From Sphingomonas sp. Leaf357 (GTDB lineage: Bacteria; Pseudomonadota; Alphaproteobacteria; Sphingomonadales; Sphingomonadaceae): DNA of 64,000 nucleotides. The notes beneath the pieces are model-generated. The model was not told the DNA's origin. It was given only the letters and a program-made list of their open reading frames with translations, and did not search any database. Location: NCBI RefSeq assembly GCF_001423845.1, contig NZ_LMPM01000002.1, positions 62,001 to 126,000 on the forward strand, given 5' to 3'. A program made the position numbers and the translations under genes. Positions 3,653-25,780 of this stretch are shown one piece after another (the first letter of the stretch is position 1; each line of letters begins with the position of its first letter).

Positions 3653-4438
3653 TCAGATCTCCCGCCCCGGCCGCCGGCTCAGCCCCACGTCCAGATGCGC
3701 GCCCGCGTCCACCAGCATCACCTCGCCGGTGATCGCGCGGGCGTCGGGGTCGAGCAGCTGGACGATCGGCCCGGCCACGTCGTCCGGCCCCGCCGCGATC
3801 CCCATCGGCGTCTTGCTCGCGATTCGTTCGTTGAGCGCCGCGAAGCCCTCCTCGCCCAGCCGTTTCTCGAACCAGCCGGTGCCGACATAGCCCGGTGCCA
3901 CCGCATTCACGCGGATCGCCGGGGCCAGCGCCCGCGCCAGGCTGCGCGTCATCGTCACCAGTGCGCCCTTCGACGCGGCATAGGCAACCGACGATCCGTT
4001 GCCGAACACCCCGGCCACGCTCGCCACGTTGACGACCGCGCCGATCCCGCCACCGCGCATCGCCGGCGCGCACGCGCGGATCATCTGGAACGGCGCGATC
4101 GTATTGAGCCGGTAGATGTCCACGAAATCCTCCGCGTCCAGCGCATCGAGATCCTCGTGATCGGCGAACTTGGTCCGCCCCGCATTGTTGACCAGGAAGT
4201 CGATCCGCCCGAACGCGTCCACCGCCGCCCCGGCCAGCGCGCGGCACGCCGCATCCTCGACGATGTCCGCCTGCACCGCGATCGCACCGGTGCCGACCTC
4301 GGCCGCCAGCGCCTCGGCCTCGTCGCGGCTCGACGCATAGTTGATCACGCAGCGCACGCCACGCTTGGCAAGCTTGCGCACCACCGACGCCCCGATCCCG
4401 GTGCCGCCCCCGGTAACGATCGCAACCGCATCCTGCAT
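3653..4438 (-). CDS. SDR-family oxidoreductase (3-oxoacyl-ACP reductase-like)
   Basis: The 261-residue protein has the classical short-chain dehydrogenase layout: nucleotide-binding TGGGTGIG at residues 9-16, a VNNAG segment, a catalytic serine in NVASVAG, and YAASK as the catalytic Tyr/Lys pair. The C-terminal end has the usual ITGEVMLVDAG. It should reduce or oxidise a carbonyl/alcohol with NAD(P)(H) in the cytosol. Two ATG codons lie side by side at 4441 and 4438 behind AAGGGG; either could be used. The gene diverges from the acyl-CoA ligase at 4517, so a lipid-related substrate is plausible but not shown. Confidence 0.9.
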   Translation of the reverse strand: MQDAVAIVTGGGTGIGASVVRKLAKRGVRCVINYASSRDEAEALAAEVGTGAIAVQADIVEDAACRALAGAAVDAFGRIDFLVNNAGRTKFADHEDLDALDAEDFVDIYRLNTIAPFQMIRACAPAMRGGGIGAVVNVASVAGVFGNGSSVAYAASKGALVTMTRSLARALAPAIRVNAVAPGYVGTGWFEKRLGEEGFAALNERIASKTPMGIAAGPDDVAGPIVQLLDPDARAITGEVMLVDAGAHLDVGLSRRPGREI

Positions 4439-4516
4439 CATCCGCCCCTTCCCGATTCCATTTTTCGAACGTTGCGTATGGCATTTCGCGAAGGCCTGGC
4501 CTAGCGATCTCGAACC

Positions 4517-6070
4517 ATGGGAACCGAAACCACCGCCGCCGCCCCGACCGCCGCCGAGATGCTCGAGAGCGACTTCGCCACCCTCCCCGATCTGATCCGC
4601 GCGCACGGCCGAGACCGCGGCGAGAAGATCGCGCTGGCCGAGGCCGGCGGCGAACTCGATTATGCCGGGCTGGACGCGCTGATGGACCGCATCGCCGCCG
4701 CCTTGCAGCGCGACGGGATCGCGCAAGGATCGTCCGTCGCGATCGTCGCCGCCGCCAGCATCGAATATGCCACCGTTTTCCTCGGTGCGCTGCGCGCCGG
4801 CTGCGTCGCCACCCCGCTCGCCCCCTCCTCCACCGGCGAGGCGCTGGTCGCGATGATCGCCGATTGCGGCGCGCCCATCACCTTCATCGACGCCGACGCC
4901 GCGACCACGCTCGCCGGCCGGCACATTCCCGGCAAGCTCGTCCATCTGAAGTCGCTCGGCACCTGGATCGCGCCCGAAGGCGCGGAGCCGACGCCGGTCG
5001 AGATGGCGCCCGAGGACGGCTTCAACATCATCTATTCGTCCGGCACCACCGGCACGCCCAAGGGTATCGTGCAGAGCCATGCGATGCGCTGGGCGCATAT
5101 CGCGCGCAACGCCGCCGCCGGGTTCGGCGAAGCCGTCACGATGATCGCCACGCCGCTCTATTCGAACACGACGCTCGTCAGCTTCCTGCCGACGCTCGGC
5201 TGGGGCGGCACCGTCGTGCTGATGAAGAAATTCGACGCGCGCGGCTATCTGCAACTCGCCGAACGCCATCGCGCCACGCACACCATGCTCGTGCCCGTCC
5301 AATATCAGCGCATCATGGCGCTGCCCGATTTCGACGGCTTCGATCTGACCAGTTTCCGCCTCAAGACCAGCACCAGCGCGCCTTTCTCCGCCGCGCTGAA
5401 ATCGGACGTCGTCGCGCGCTGGCCCGGCATGCTGCTCGAATATTACGGCATGACCGAGGGCGGCGCCTCGACCGGGCTCAACGCCACCGCGCATCCGGAC
5501 AAGCTCCACACCGTCGGCGTGCCGCTGCCCGGCCACGAGATCCGCCTGATCGACGAAGACGGCAACGAAGTCGCCCCCGGCGAAATGGGCGAGGTCGTCG
5601 GCCGCAGCCCGACGATGATGACCGGCTATCACGGCCGCGCGGACGCCACCGCCTCGGCCGAATGGCACGATGCGGAGGGCAATCGCTACATCCGCCACGG
5701 CGATGTCGGCCGCTTCGATGAGGACGGCTTCCTGATCCTGATGGACCGCAAGAAGGACCTGATCATCTCGGGCGGCTTCAACATCTATCCGACCGACCTC
5801 GAGGCGGTGCTGCGCCAGCATCCCGCCGTCGCGGATTGCAGCGTCATCGGCGTGCCGAGCGAAGCTTGGGGCGAAACCCCGGTCGGTTTCTACGTGCCGC
5901 ACACCGGGATCGACGCCAGCGCGGAGGACATCCGCCAATGGACCAACACGCAGCTCGGCAAGACGCAGCGGCTGTCCGAACTCCACGCGATCGAGGAACT
6001 GCCCAGGAGCGCGATCGGCAAGGTGCTGAAACGCGAATTGCGCGATCGTCTCGCGGGGGTCGACGCATGA
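4517..6070 (+). CDS. AMP-dependent acyl-CoA synthetase/ligase
   Basis: The 517-residue enzyme is of the ANL superfamily, which activates a carboxylic acid with ATP and transfers the acyl group to CoA. It has the P-loop-like YSSGTTGTPKG at residues 173-183, the YYGMTEGG adenine-binding motif, the hinge region after RHGDVGRFDEDGF with LMDRKKDLIISGGFNI, and the C-terminal catalytic lysine in GKVLKREL. Length fits the medium/long-chain or aryl acyl-CoA ligase group. It overlaps the next gene by four bases (ATGA), so ligase and thioesterase are translationally coupled. No good Shine-Dalgarno sequence is seen at the first ATG; a later start at 4559 is possible. Confidence 0.9.
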   Translation: MGTETTAAAPTAAEMLESDFATLPDLIRAHGRDRGEKIALAEAGGELDYAGLDALMDRIAAALQRDGIAQGSSVAIVAAASIEYATVFLGALRAGCVATPLAPSSTGEALVAMIADCGAPITFIDADAATTLAGRHIPGKLVHLKSLGTWIAPEGAEPTPVEMAPEDGFNIIYSSGTTGTPKGIVQSHAMRWAHIARNAAAGFGEAVTMIATPLYSNTTLVSFLPTLGWGGTVVLMKKFDARGYLQLAERHRATHTMLVPVQYQRIMALPDFDGFDLTSFRLKTSTSAPFSAALKSDVVARWPGMLLEYYGMTEGGASTGLNATAHPDKLHTVGVPLPGHEIRLIDEDGNEVAPGEMGEVVGRSPTMMTGYHGRADATASAEWHDAEGNRYIRHGDVGRFDEDGFLILMDRKKDLIISGGFNIYPTDLEAVLRQHPAVADCSVIGVPSEAWGETPVGFYVPHTGIDASAEDIRQWTNTQLGKTQRLSELHAIEELPRSAIGKVLKRELRDRLAGVDA

Positions 6071-23974: not shown

Positions 23975-25183
23975 TCACGTTTTCAGAAGAAGGCTGACCT
24001 TCATCGCTTGCCTCTGCTGCGCACGGTTCATCTTGGCCATCCGCGCCCGATAGTAGCCGTGAAAGCCCTCTAGCCGGCGATCGATCTCTCTATCCATGGC
24101 TGCAAAGACATCTGGACAATTCGACGTTCGGAATGAGCCGCGCCAGCCCCGAACGGTATTGTCGATCGCGACGAGAGTCTGAGCGTAGCACCTATCTTGT
24201 GATTGAAGCGCGCGCCCGCTCCCAGCCTTGTCAATTGAGCGCTGTCCTTCGGCGATGAGCGTTCCGATTTGAGACATCAGTCTTTCGCGTGCGCCAGCGG
24301 CTGGCGGAAATGACCCAGGGCAGAGTTCATGTCCAAGAAACGTATGTGGCTCGCCGATCTTACCTTCGAAGGCCTTCGTTGGCGCGCGCACTGGATCATA
24401 GATGCTCATCCCATAAGCTGCCAGCATTTCGCCAGCCGAGGTCATTGCCTTACGCACCCCTCGCTCGCTTCGTCCGAGCACGATGAAGTCGTCGATATAG
24501 CGAATGCAAGTGATGCCCCGCTCGTTCATACGTGCATCGAATTCCCGGAGCACGATGTTGCCCGCAAGCGCGGAAAGCGGGCAGCCCTGCGCAACACCGT
24601 CCGGGCCCGTGGGAAACAGCTTCCTATCAGCAGCACTAAGCCGATCCTCGTTGGCGAGCTCAACGGTGAGAGCTTTCTCGACCAATTCAACAAATTCTAT
24701 TTCGACTCCGGCGCCCGTCAAGAACTCAAAAACTTTCTGCCGAGGAATTTTTGTGAAAAATGCAGCAATGTCAGATCCAGCACAATACTGATCCCCGGCC
24801 TCAACTCGGGCCTGGAAGAGTTTCAATCCTGTATCGACACCTCGCCCGCGAATGCCTCCAACGGAAGTTGGACACGCCAGCACGGCTTGCAGAAGCGGCA
24901 AATCATCCGCATCCTGCAAGACATCCAAAAGTGCTCGCTGAACGATCCGGTCTTCTAACGGAGCGACGACTAGCGGGCGCTTGCCCGGCTTTCCCCCGGC
25001 CTTGGGGGGCGTGGCACCGTGCGCCTTGGCGAACACGTATCCTGCTTCCAACCTGCTCTGGAGCTTGCGGAGATTTACGACCAAGTCCTCTCCGAACTCA
25101 CGCGCACGGCGCTTCGTCGCTTCCTGCCGCGAAGTTTCCGCGTTTCGACGGATCGCGTGCCAAGCCCCCATGAGCACAGCCAT
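23975..25183 (-). CDS. Reverse transcriptase (group II-like / unknown-group, solitary)
   Basis: The 402-residue protein has an intact RNA-directed DNA polymerase core: RPLVVAPLEDRIVQRAL near 69-84, the first catalytic Asp138 in GSDIAAFF, QGCPLSALAGN at 199-209, YIDD at 229-232, and FLGHEL near 282. The C-terminal part (VRGWRGSFRTSN and later basic helices) resembles a thumb, but no HNH nuclease or typical maturase domain follows. QGCPLS rather than a GxxxSQ motif argues against a diversity-generating retroelement. The start is uncertain: ATG at 25183 is chosen, and a TTG at 25246 is possible. No partner gene lies on its strand; two identical 98-bp repeats lie upstream. It could be a defence-type (DRT-like) or retron-like enzyme, or a relic of a group II intron. 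Confidence 0.85.
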   Translation of the reverse strand: MAVLMGAWHAIRRNAETSRQEATKRRAREFGEDLVVNLRKLQSRLEAGYVFAKAHGATPPKAGGKPGKRPLVVAPLEDRIVQRALLDVLQDADDLPLLQAVLACPTSVGGIRGRGVDTGLKLFQARVEAGDQYCAGSDIAAFFTKIPRQKVFEFLTGAGVEIEFVELVEKALTVELANEDRLSAADRKLFPTGPDGVAQGCPLSALAGNIVLREFDARMNERGITCIRYIDDFIVLGRSERGVRKAMTSAGEMLAAYGMSIYDPVRAPTKAFEGKIGEPHTFLGHELCPGSFPPAAGARERLMSQIGTLIAEGQRSIDKAGSGRALQSQDRCYAQTLVAIDNTVRGWRGSFRTSNCPDVFAAMDREIDRRLEGFHGYYRARMAKMNRAQQRQAMKVSLLLKT

Positions 25184-25264
25184 GGAGCGCGCACGCTTGC
25201 ACAACCCCTTCGGGCGCCGCCTTCTAGCTGCGGGGCCTGCCGACAAAGTCTTCCCCCGGCCAGT

Positions 25265-25362
25265 GGCGTCCTTCCATCGCCGCCCCGACGATCAACGTCG
25301 CCGATGCGTCGACATGCACCGCAAGGCTCATCGCCCGGCGATGGTCCCCGCCTCTCGGACCT
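25265..25362 (-). repeat. 98-bp direct repeat, copy nearer the reverse transcriptase
   Basis: Identical over 98 bp to 25592-25689; both are followed (plus strand) by AATAAGGGACA, directly here and after six extra bases (GGCGAG) in the other copy. The repeat is 82 bp upstream of the chosen reverse transcriptase start. Confidence 0.93.
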
Positions 25363-25591
25363 AATAAGGGACAGCGACAAAGCGGCAACCCAGCAGCGAA
25401 CAAAGCTCGCCGCGAGCGCCGTAGTAACTCCGCGTCCACGCATACTATCTCCCCCCATCAGCTTAGCAGCTTTTTGGGCGCGTCAAGCACTTGCATGGCT
25501 CGCCGCCCAGACCGACACTTATGTTCGGAGACTGATCGGCAGGCCGCCGTGAGCGGAACACCAGTCTCGCACATGCTAGCCGGGGCGTGCG

Positions 25592-25689
25592 GGCGTCCTT
25601 CCATCGCCGCCCCGACGATCAACGTCGCCGATGCGTCGACATGCACCGCAAGGCTCATCGCCCGGCGATGGTCCCCGCCTCTCGGACCT
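25592..25689 (-). repeat. 98-bp direct repeat, distal copy
   Basis: Second identical copy, offset 327 bp from the first. The flanks beyond the shared AATAAGGGACA are different, so the duplication is limited to about 110 bp. Confidence 0.93.
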
Positions 25690-25780
25690 GGCGAGAATAA
25701 GGGACAAGTCAGCATCCGCTCCGTAGCTCATTCGCAAGTGGAAGGAAAGGAGAACAGAGCGAAGGCCCGATGGCGTTTCG

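Follow-up and report, generated by a model that had tools for sequence, protein, structure and literature searches.

A G2L4 reverse transcriptase gene preceded by concertedly evolving direct repeats, a structured RNA and the two halves of a candidate permuted gene

We analyzed 64,000 nucleotides (nt) of Sphingomonas sp. Leaf357 (contig NZ_LMPM01000002.1, positions 62,001 to 126,000; hereafter the window), in which a solitary reverse transcriptase (RT) gene is preceded on its own strand by two direct repeats, A and B. The preliminary description of this DNA, made from the letters alone, had reported an RT open reading frame (ORF) with polymerase motifs and two exact 98-bp repeats upstream of it. 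Both observations were confirmed: the ORF carries QGCPLS and the YIDD active site, and the exact copies lie at 25265-25362 and 25592-25689, 327 bp apart, with similarity reaching 126 bp at 90%. A search of the window's own genome (E up to 0.001) gave two matches in total and no further copy of the repeat. The features of the locus, in window coordinates, are as follows.

23975..25246, minus strand: reverse transcriptase ORF, 423 amino acids, TTG start at 25246, frame open
25592..25717, minus strand: repeat A, the first copy on the RT strand, exact core 25592-25689; probable 5' end of a long transcript
25265..25390, minus strand: repeat B, the second copy, exact core 25265-25362
25576..25585, minus strand: P, 5' arm of a long-range helix, directly after repeat A
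25254..25263, minus strand: P', 3' arm of the long-range helix, between repeat B and the RT start
25559..25570, minus strand: 5' arm of hairpin H1, GAGACTG core, with covariation in the family
25527..25537, minus strand: 3' arm of hairpin H1, CAGTCTC core, with covariation in the family
25461..25591, minus strand: the "tail," a frame that in the window stays open for 131 nt beyond repeat A; it also holds P and H1
25460..25486, minus strand: P2, a promoter-like TTGACG-15 nt-TAAGCT between the repeats with AAAAA in the spacer, a match to the consensus only
25265..25443, minus strand: N terminus of a small ORF, ATG at 25443, hydrophobic, entering repeat B
25741..25755, minus strand: possible LexA box GTTC-N7-cTTC upstream of repeat A, a weak lead

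The enzyme is a group II intron-like 4 (G2L4) RT. When compared with solved RTs by phmmer, it matched the G2L4 crystal chains 9d5x and 9d4s at E = 1.5e-61 (212 bits, single sequence), the next-best solved RT being a Cas6-RT-Cas1 at E = 2.1e-11. Its AlphaFold model (mean predicted local distance difference test score, 91) likewise had 9d4s and 9d5x as top Foldseek matches [template modeling (TM) score, 0.79-0.84], with the RTs of group II introns, diversity-generating retroelements (DGRs), defense-associated RT (DRT) systems, and retrons ranking below. YIDD is described as a distinctive mark of G2L4 enzymes (PMC4244168; here and below, statements from cited papers rest on portions of their text). 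It is also present in the remaining rows of the family, except for L059 (YVDD), L052 (no match), and the truncated L045 and L055; the RT of L046, which is not G2L4, has YADD. Compared by eye with the G2L4 RT3a insertion before AQG, which has an acidic residue and paired arginines, the window RT shows a stretch of similar length and an acidic residue, with the arginine pair placed differently. Other classes were rejected. PADLOC scored the enzyme best with a generic RT model (106 bits), and its best model of the DRT/UG class, UG17, reached 77 bits, compared with 212 bits for the single G2L4 sequence. The TIGR04416 maturase model gave 110 bits against a cutoff of 300, Pfam returned only a GIIM match below its cutoff (18.9 versus 23 bits), and an Rfam scan around the window RT and in five relatives found no group II intron RNA family. 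The retron motifs NAxxH and VTG were not seen by eye in the window RT. The preliminary description had found the layout reminiscent of retrons and DRT systems, but the enzyme is neither a retron nor a DRT/UG RT; it had seen no maturase domain, for which Pfam gave only the match below cutoff. Placement among group II RTs with an intron RNA, which it had named as grounds for giving up its reading, was looked for in the Rfam scan and not found.

Relatives were gathered from genome contigs, viral contigs, plasmids, and further genomes. Rows were dropped when they came from the same place as the window (L001 and L002), duplicated L038, L042, and L044 (L060 to L062), or were not G2L4 or truncated (L045 to L048, L051, and L055), and eight loci with a short upstream region and two with N gaps were kept outside the 43 usable loci. 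A direct repeat pair stands right before the RT in 34 of these 43 loci, the window included; eight more hold a single fused copy, in which, judged by eye, the left flank of A is joined to the right flank of B, and the remaining locus, L044, has an N gap inside the repeat. The paired repeats measure 98-148 bp (median 132), are 94.8-100% identical within a locus (median 99.3%; 15/34 perfect), and have a period of 327-381 bp, or 485 bp in four Pseudomonas loci (L038, positions 4437-4787, L042, L063, and L064), where the promoter/hairpin block is duplicated inside the interval (CCAAAAAGG... and TGCAAAAACGTGCC...), which accounts for the longer period. Carriers belong to the Alpha- and Gammaproteobacteria, with one Desulfovibrio. 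The layout is not due to chance, since it is found again in 33 other loci, with RT protein identity as low as about 27%. This recurrence supports the earlier proposal that structured region, duplicated repeat, and RT form one system, and homologues lacking a conserved upstream region, the other finding that was to speak against it, are not what we observed: the region is common to them. The fused state is scattered over the RT tree (8 rows, 7 changes). The RTs of fused loci keep YIDD, and the one fused pair compared has a low dN/dS (nonsynonymous/synonymous divergence), 0.045/0.236; some fused loci may be assembly collapses. In one Pseudomonas comparison, between the fused L039 and the two-copy L064, the 133-bp repeat is 100% identical, the RTs being 90% identical in amino acids with a dS of 0.44.

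About 1% of genomes carry the RT (3/397, 5/385, 4/398, and 5/298, in sets with differing E limits and with the query's source genome counted each time). Close copies were found in one plasmid record and in neither the phage collection nor the E. coli genomes, and the neighborhoods of the RT yielded no widely shared partner gene. A viral contig, L051, has a 113-bp, 90% identical pair, 534 bp apart, before a YIDD RT 25% identical to the query. This pair may represent the layout in a more remote form; L051 was left out of the counts because of its distant RT.

The two copies evolve in concert. Among 17 overlapping locus pairs, both copies of one locus differed from both copies of the other at 424 sites, while the opposite pattern, A matching A and B matching B between loci, was seen at none; the copies of one locus differed from each other at 18 sites. 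Identity falls to chance (24-26%) in the 20 nt beyond the repeat edges, which were set by BLAST, so the first outside bases are partly nonmatching by construction. Differences between A and B cluster at the ends (28 of 41 mismatch columns in the outer 20 nt), and the 41 columns show no adenine bias, on which ground we rejected adenine hypermutation of the DGR type. Between L050 and L056, whose RTs have a dS of 1.43, the repeats are 100% and the interval is 96.6% identical; for L038 and L042 (dS 1.33), the values are 94 and 83%. Within the sphingomonad clade, divergence of the repeats equals or exceeds that of the interval (50 and 61% for L005 and L013). Where RT synonymous divergence is measurable, repeats and interval are thus far more conserved than the RT synonymous sites, and the sequence itself is constrained within lineages yet free to drift in concert between them.

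Compensatory changes support helices in the predicted RNA fold of the upstream region. The segment after A (P) pairs with the segment after B (P') at the same place in 21/28 loci, compared with 6 to 8 when partners are taken from other loci. This P:P' helix was the one clear outlier in an anchored scan of 21 region pairs in 28 of the 34 loci (near-duplicates dropped). The scan was decisive, not duplex energy, by which P:P' is modest (31/34 below the cross-locus mean, 14/34 below a z of -2, mean z -1.6). RNAalifold, run on an alignment of 27 of the 34 loci built regardless of pairing (without near-duplicates and Pseudomonas loci), returned P:P' with 77% of cells paired and 29 double changes, hairpin H1 between the repeats (87%, 40 double changes), and a weaker third hairpin (69%, 4 double changes). 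In a separate 27-locus alignment, H1 paired in 92.6% of cells with 25 double-changed cells, versus 18-43% for slid versions. Its covariation score was attained by 0/500 shuffles and its count of pairs changed on both sides by 7/500, while its number of pair types is not unusual (297/500). Wherever the spacing of the H1 arms varies between loci, it does so in steps of three. The RT start coincides with or is close to P' and the hairpin that follows, and the complementary flanks P and P' enclose a structured RNA upstream of the RT, as in retrons.

A covariance model of this RNA hit 4 of 199 Pseudomonas genomes, all four being RT-positive G2L4 loci from the training set, so this search tests specificity only. 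Across 25 sequence sources, the model matched the untrained L027 upstream of its RT (E = 0.0055) and L016 only at E = 0.81; no other sphingomonad-type locus, the window included, was recovered at E up to 1. No Rfam family exceeded its threshold on the repeat, in keeping with the initial impression that it matches no described family. The same description had pictured the repeat as a hairpin-rich template. The RNA structure is borne out, but the best-supported helices lie beside the repeats rather than inside them, and the repeat looks more like a shared segment of a permuted ORF. Separately, the interval of many loci (for example, L018 and L056) holds a strongly conserved, hairpin-capable TGCAAAAACGTGCC(loop)GGCGC, open in two overlapping frames (MQKRA and CKNVP), which is a candidate frameshift or initiation signal.

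The small ORF is split by the layout. Its start and hydrophobic N terminus (often MQKRA...) precede B, which is traversed by one or more open frames in 33/34 loci. After A, the frame in register with this ORF stays open for at least 120 nt in 31/34 loci (median 167 nt), while the other two do so in only 5/34 and 6/34 (Fisher p = 1e-13); base composition alone predicts such a frame in 6.0 of 27 lineages. The count is a guide only, as the loci are related and shared RNA motifs place stops in the other frames. Phase agreement is the stronger test. The joined distance from the start to H1 (start to B plus A to H1) takes 10 values between 202 and 232 nt, all of them 1 mod 3, in 27/27 loci, whereas the distance in genomic order is not in phase (14/8/5 across the 27 loci). 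Phase was mapped through the middle of the repeat in 27 of the 34 loci, with seven sphingomonad-type loci, the window among them, set aside because H1 aligns differently there; the start was taken at a CAAAAA motif in 22/27 loci and picked by hand in five (L024, L025, L026, L057, and L058). In the sphingomonad-type loci, the joined frame is open in 5/7; it is not in L003, and the start chosen for L016 leads to a stop inside B. Thus, a reading frame is kept across halves that the genome does not join, and at the level of sequence it is continuous only after joining, as in DRT2, although the A side could also be translated leaderless. In the 33 loci other than the window, the A-side frame never has an ATG with a Shine-Dalgarno sequence, and in 14 of them it is preceded by an in-frame stop no more than 15 nt away.

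The 327-bp spacing, presented in the preliminary description as in phase, turned out not to be a family trait: the period is 0, 1, and 2 mod 3 in 9, 10, and 8 of 27 loci, and an endless ORF like neo of DRT2 was rejected as the rule on these counts. The tail was also rejected as ordinary coding sequence, there being no signal in pN/pS (nonsynonymous/synonymous polymorphism). A protein search with the small ORF gave three homologues. In the window, judged by eye against L049, unlike deletions lie near the 5' edge of the copies (17 nt in A and 23 nt in B), and the joined frame stops after 64 codons. Its RT is intact, and its small ORF is probably frame-broken.

Candidate promoters were scored with a simple sigma-70 matrix. 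The distance between the predicted start and the left edge of A is at most 8 nt in 16/33 loci, versus 4.0 expected, and a second promoter-like motif between the repeats, TTGAC(a/g) followed by a 15- to 16-nt spacer containing AAAAA, is conserved in the family.

We consider it nearly an even chance that these loci are two-part retroelements, in which the G2L4 RT uses its own RNA as template and, by switching from one repeat to the other, assembles a permuted small gene. A long transcript would run 5'-A-P-H1/tail-P2-N-terminus-B-P'-RT-3', and P:P' pairing would set the 3' ends of both repeats side by side. The RT would copy the tail and A up to the RNA 5' end, which would coincide with the left edge of A. 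As the newly made DNA end is complementary to B too, it could then shift to B and be extended through the N terminus and P2. The product would carry P2, N terminus, repeat, and tail in continuous order, a gene for a small hydrophobic protein that is split in the genome. One protein comprising N terminus, repeat, and tail would be translated from a molecule in which the repeat of B continues into the tail of A, and it might arrest growth or act against phage. Being homologous to both genomic copies, the complementary DNA (cDNA) could overwrite them and so keep the repeats alike. Extended to the family, with G2L4 enzymes as the protein half of an RNA-templated system that assembles a permuted hydrophobic gene by retrovirus-like transfer, its cDNA homogenizing the repeats, rather than stand-alone repair polymerases, the proposal is more tentative, and we lean slightly against it.

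Several observations weigh against assembly by the RT. The support is at the level of sequence, and the shared RNA motifs, which hold stops in the other frames, account in part for which frames are open. An in-frame ATG, GTG, or TTG of some kind is present on the A side in 31/33 loci (ATG in 10/33), and in 9/33 one stands exactly at the edge of A (-1 or 0), which suits leaderless translation. A Shine-Dalgarno sequence of at least four matches precedes the start of the small ORF in only 8/33 loci. Constraint on the protein is weak, with a pN/pS of 0.63 in frame versus 1.07 and 1.33 for repeat B and no clear frame preference in the tail (0.77/0.98/0.74; 15 pairs each). The predicted start in the window is not at A, its best-scoring site giving -68. 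Fused loci keep the RT without tail and N terminus, so the enzyme may have a role that does not involve a joined gene, and an RT would not be needed if recombination between the repeats joined the halves. Furthermore, the substrates of the published Pseudomonas aeruginosa G2L4 RT are DNA ends, and the portions of PMC12337344 consulted do not mention a cognate RNA.

The open frames on both sides would also be expected if start-N-terminus-B and A-tail were two ordinary small proteins sharing a domain, A-tail perhaps being translated leaderless from a transcript that starts at A, with host gene conversion keeping the common part alike and the RNA helices regulating RT expression. Gene conversion between near direct repeats is common. 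The start codons and predicted transcript starts at the edge of A fit such a pair of proteins, as does the location of P' and the following hairpin at or close to the RT start. The shortage of A-side initiation signals, with no ATG preceded by a Shine-Dalgarno sequence and any in-frame ATG in under a third of loci, does not. The repeats moreover hold at about 130 bp over very deep divergence, whereas conversion should erode their ends, and direct repeats 330-380 bp apart should be deleted unless selection keeps them. We judge this explanation rather unlikely. Alternatively, the RT might make a short single-stranded cDNA of one repeat, as in retrons or DGRs, the other copy being a recombination target and the ORF frame a by-product of that target being coding. 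P and P' would then correspond to a1 and a2, the interval to msr, and B to msd, or else A would be template and B target. The order P-interval-B-P'-RT does match the retron order a1-msr-msd-a2-RT (PMC6868368), the repeat length is nearly constant around its median, and recombination with cDNA would yield concerted evolution. It does not account for the frame of the tail after A, which matches that of an ORF starting ahead of B; the missing VTG and NAxxH motifs speak against the retron variant and the lack of adenine bias against the DGR variant, and on balance we regard the explanation as unlikely. A recombination switch, in which crossover between A and B excises the whole gene on a circle and, at the fused locus that remains, the upstream promoter comes to precede the RT, would likewise restore the joined frame, and its predicted leftovers resemble the fused loci (8/43) scattered on the tree. 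It gives no role to the P:P' RNA helix or the adjacent RT, and excision is irreversible, yet most lineages keep two copies; we hold it to be very improbable.

The proposed assembly by the RT was compared with known systems. Its transfer has the geometry of retroviral strong-stop transfer, in which the identical R repeat begins at the RNA 5' end and the strand is transferred to a second copy; unlike retroviruses, G2L4 loci show no long terminal repeats or integration, and both copies lie upstream of the RT. DGRs, too, have a pair of repeats close to the RT, and a small ORF has one of them at its 3' end, but the differences between their copies are adenine biased, which is not so for G2L4 repeats, and their RT class is different. 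The G2L4 enzyme of 9d4s and 9d5x shares family, fold, and YIDD with the window RT. In print it is a free-standing enzyme of double-strand-break repair by microhomology end joining (PMC12337344), for which the portions of PMC12337344 and PMC4244168 at hand name no cognate RNA, repeats, or gene, and G2L4 RTs are described as having no ribozyme structures and unknown roles (PMC4424553). The text of PMC12337344 contains no mention of a direct repeat, operon, promoter, noncoding, intergenic, or template RNA, and that of PMC13015716 none of a repeat, upstream, operon, or noncoding element.

A precedent for gene assembly is DRT2, in which repeated copying of a neighboring structured RNA can build a gene, neo, that is missing from the genome (PMC12039810). 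Its hydrophobic product and less conserved template region are further likenesses; its RT class differs, as do the ACA trinucleotides flanking the template, the 120-bp concatemer, and the rebuilding of the promoter as well (PMC12039810). Window-type loci have repeats of about 130 nt, a period of 327-485 nt, an intact promoter-like motif, and a permuted ORF. In DRT10, short homology between A and A' of an A-B-A' template resets the template, and the transfer proposed here would be a larger-scale version; there the homology is of a few nucleotides, the product is a short tandem repeat, the partner is a SLATT protein, and the RT is UG17 (PMC12632851). Retrons share paired flanks, a structured RNA, and then an RT in one cassette, but have other RT motifs, and the relevant parts of PMC6868368 describe no second template copy and no gene assembly. 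No report of repeats or an RNA partner of a G2L4 RT was found in the literature searched, outside which the Cell 2022 G2L4 paper lies.

If the proposed assembly is correct, the picture of the G2L4 RT as a free-standing domesticated enzyme would be overturned and the purpose of its RT activity explained. Gene assembly by reverse transcription, as in DRT2, would have re-arisen in a group II intron-like lineage by a retrovirus-like route, giving a second, separately evolved gene that exists only as cDNA. It would also be, to our knowledge, the first bacterial R-repeat mechanism. A frame conserved only across unjoined halves offers a sequence test for hidden genes beside other RTs. Even under the rival explanations, a conserved RNA partner and concertedly evolving repeats across a published RT family merit testing.

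The window locus lies in a conjugative region with arsenic genes. A TrwC relaxase and a TrwB-type coupling protein flank it on one side and ArsB, an FMN reductase, and an ArsC-family protein on the other, which bears out the setting between arsenic and mobilization genes on a mobile element given in the preliminary description. Searches for a phage origin of the repeats gave no match for the window repeat and, for that of L056, only short chance-like matches to 13 records. L056 itself, on a P. aeruginosa plasmid record (NZ_CP131792), sits between purC and a recombinase family gene, with a TIR-domain protein, an inovirus-type Gp2 protein, and an integrase nearby, a genomic-island setting. By eye, a serine recombinase-like gene is present within about 3 kb of the RT in six loci, including L011, L012, L026, L038, and L056.

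Last, LexA-like boxes were found upstream of repeat A. GTTC-N7-GTTC, with up to one mismatch, occurs in 6/37 upstream regions versus 1.65 expected, five of the six in the clade of the window, and CTG-N10-CAG occurs in three versus 0.6 expected. The boxes lie -38 to -48 from repeat A in the window, L005 (exact), L049, L009, and L014. They would fit SOS control of a repair-type RT, a weak lead.

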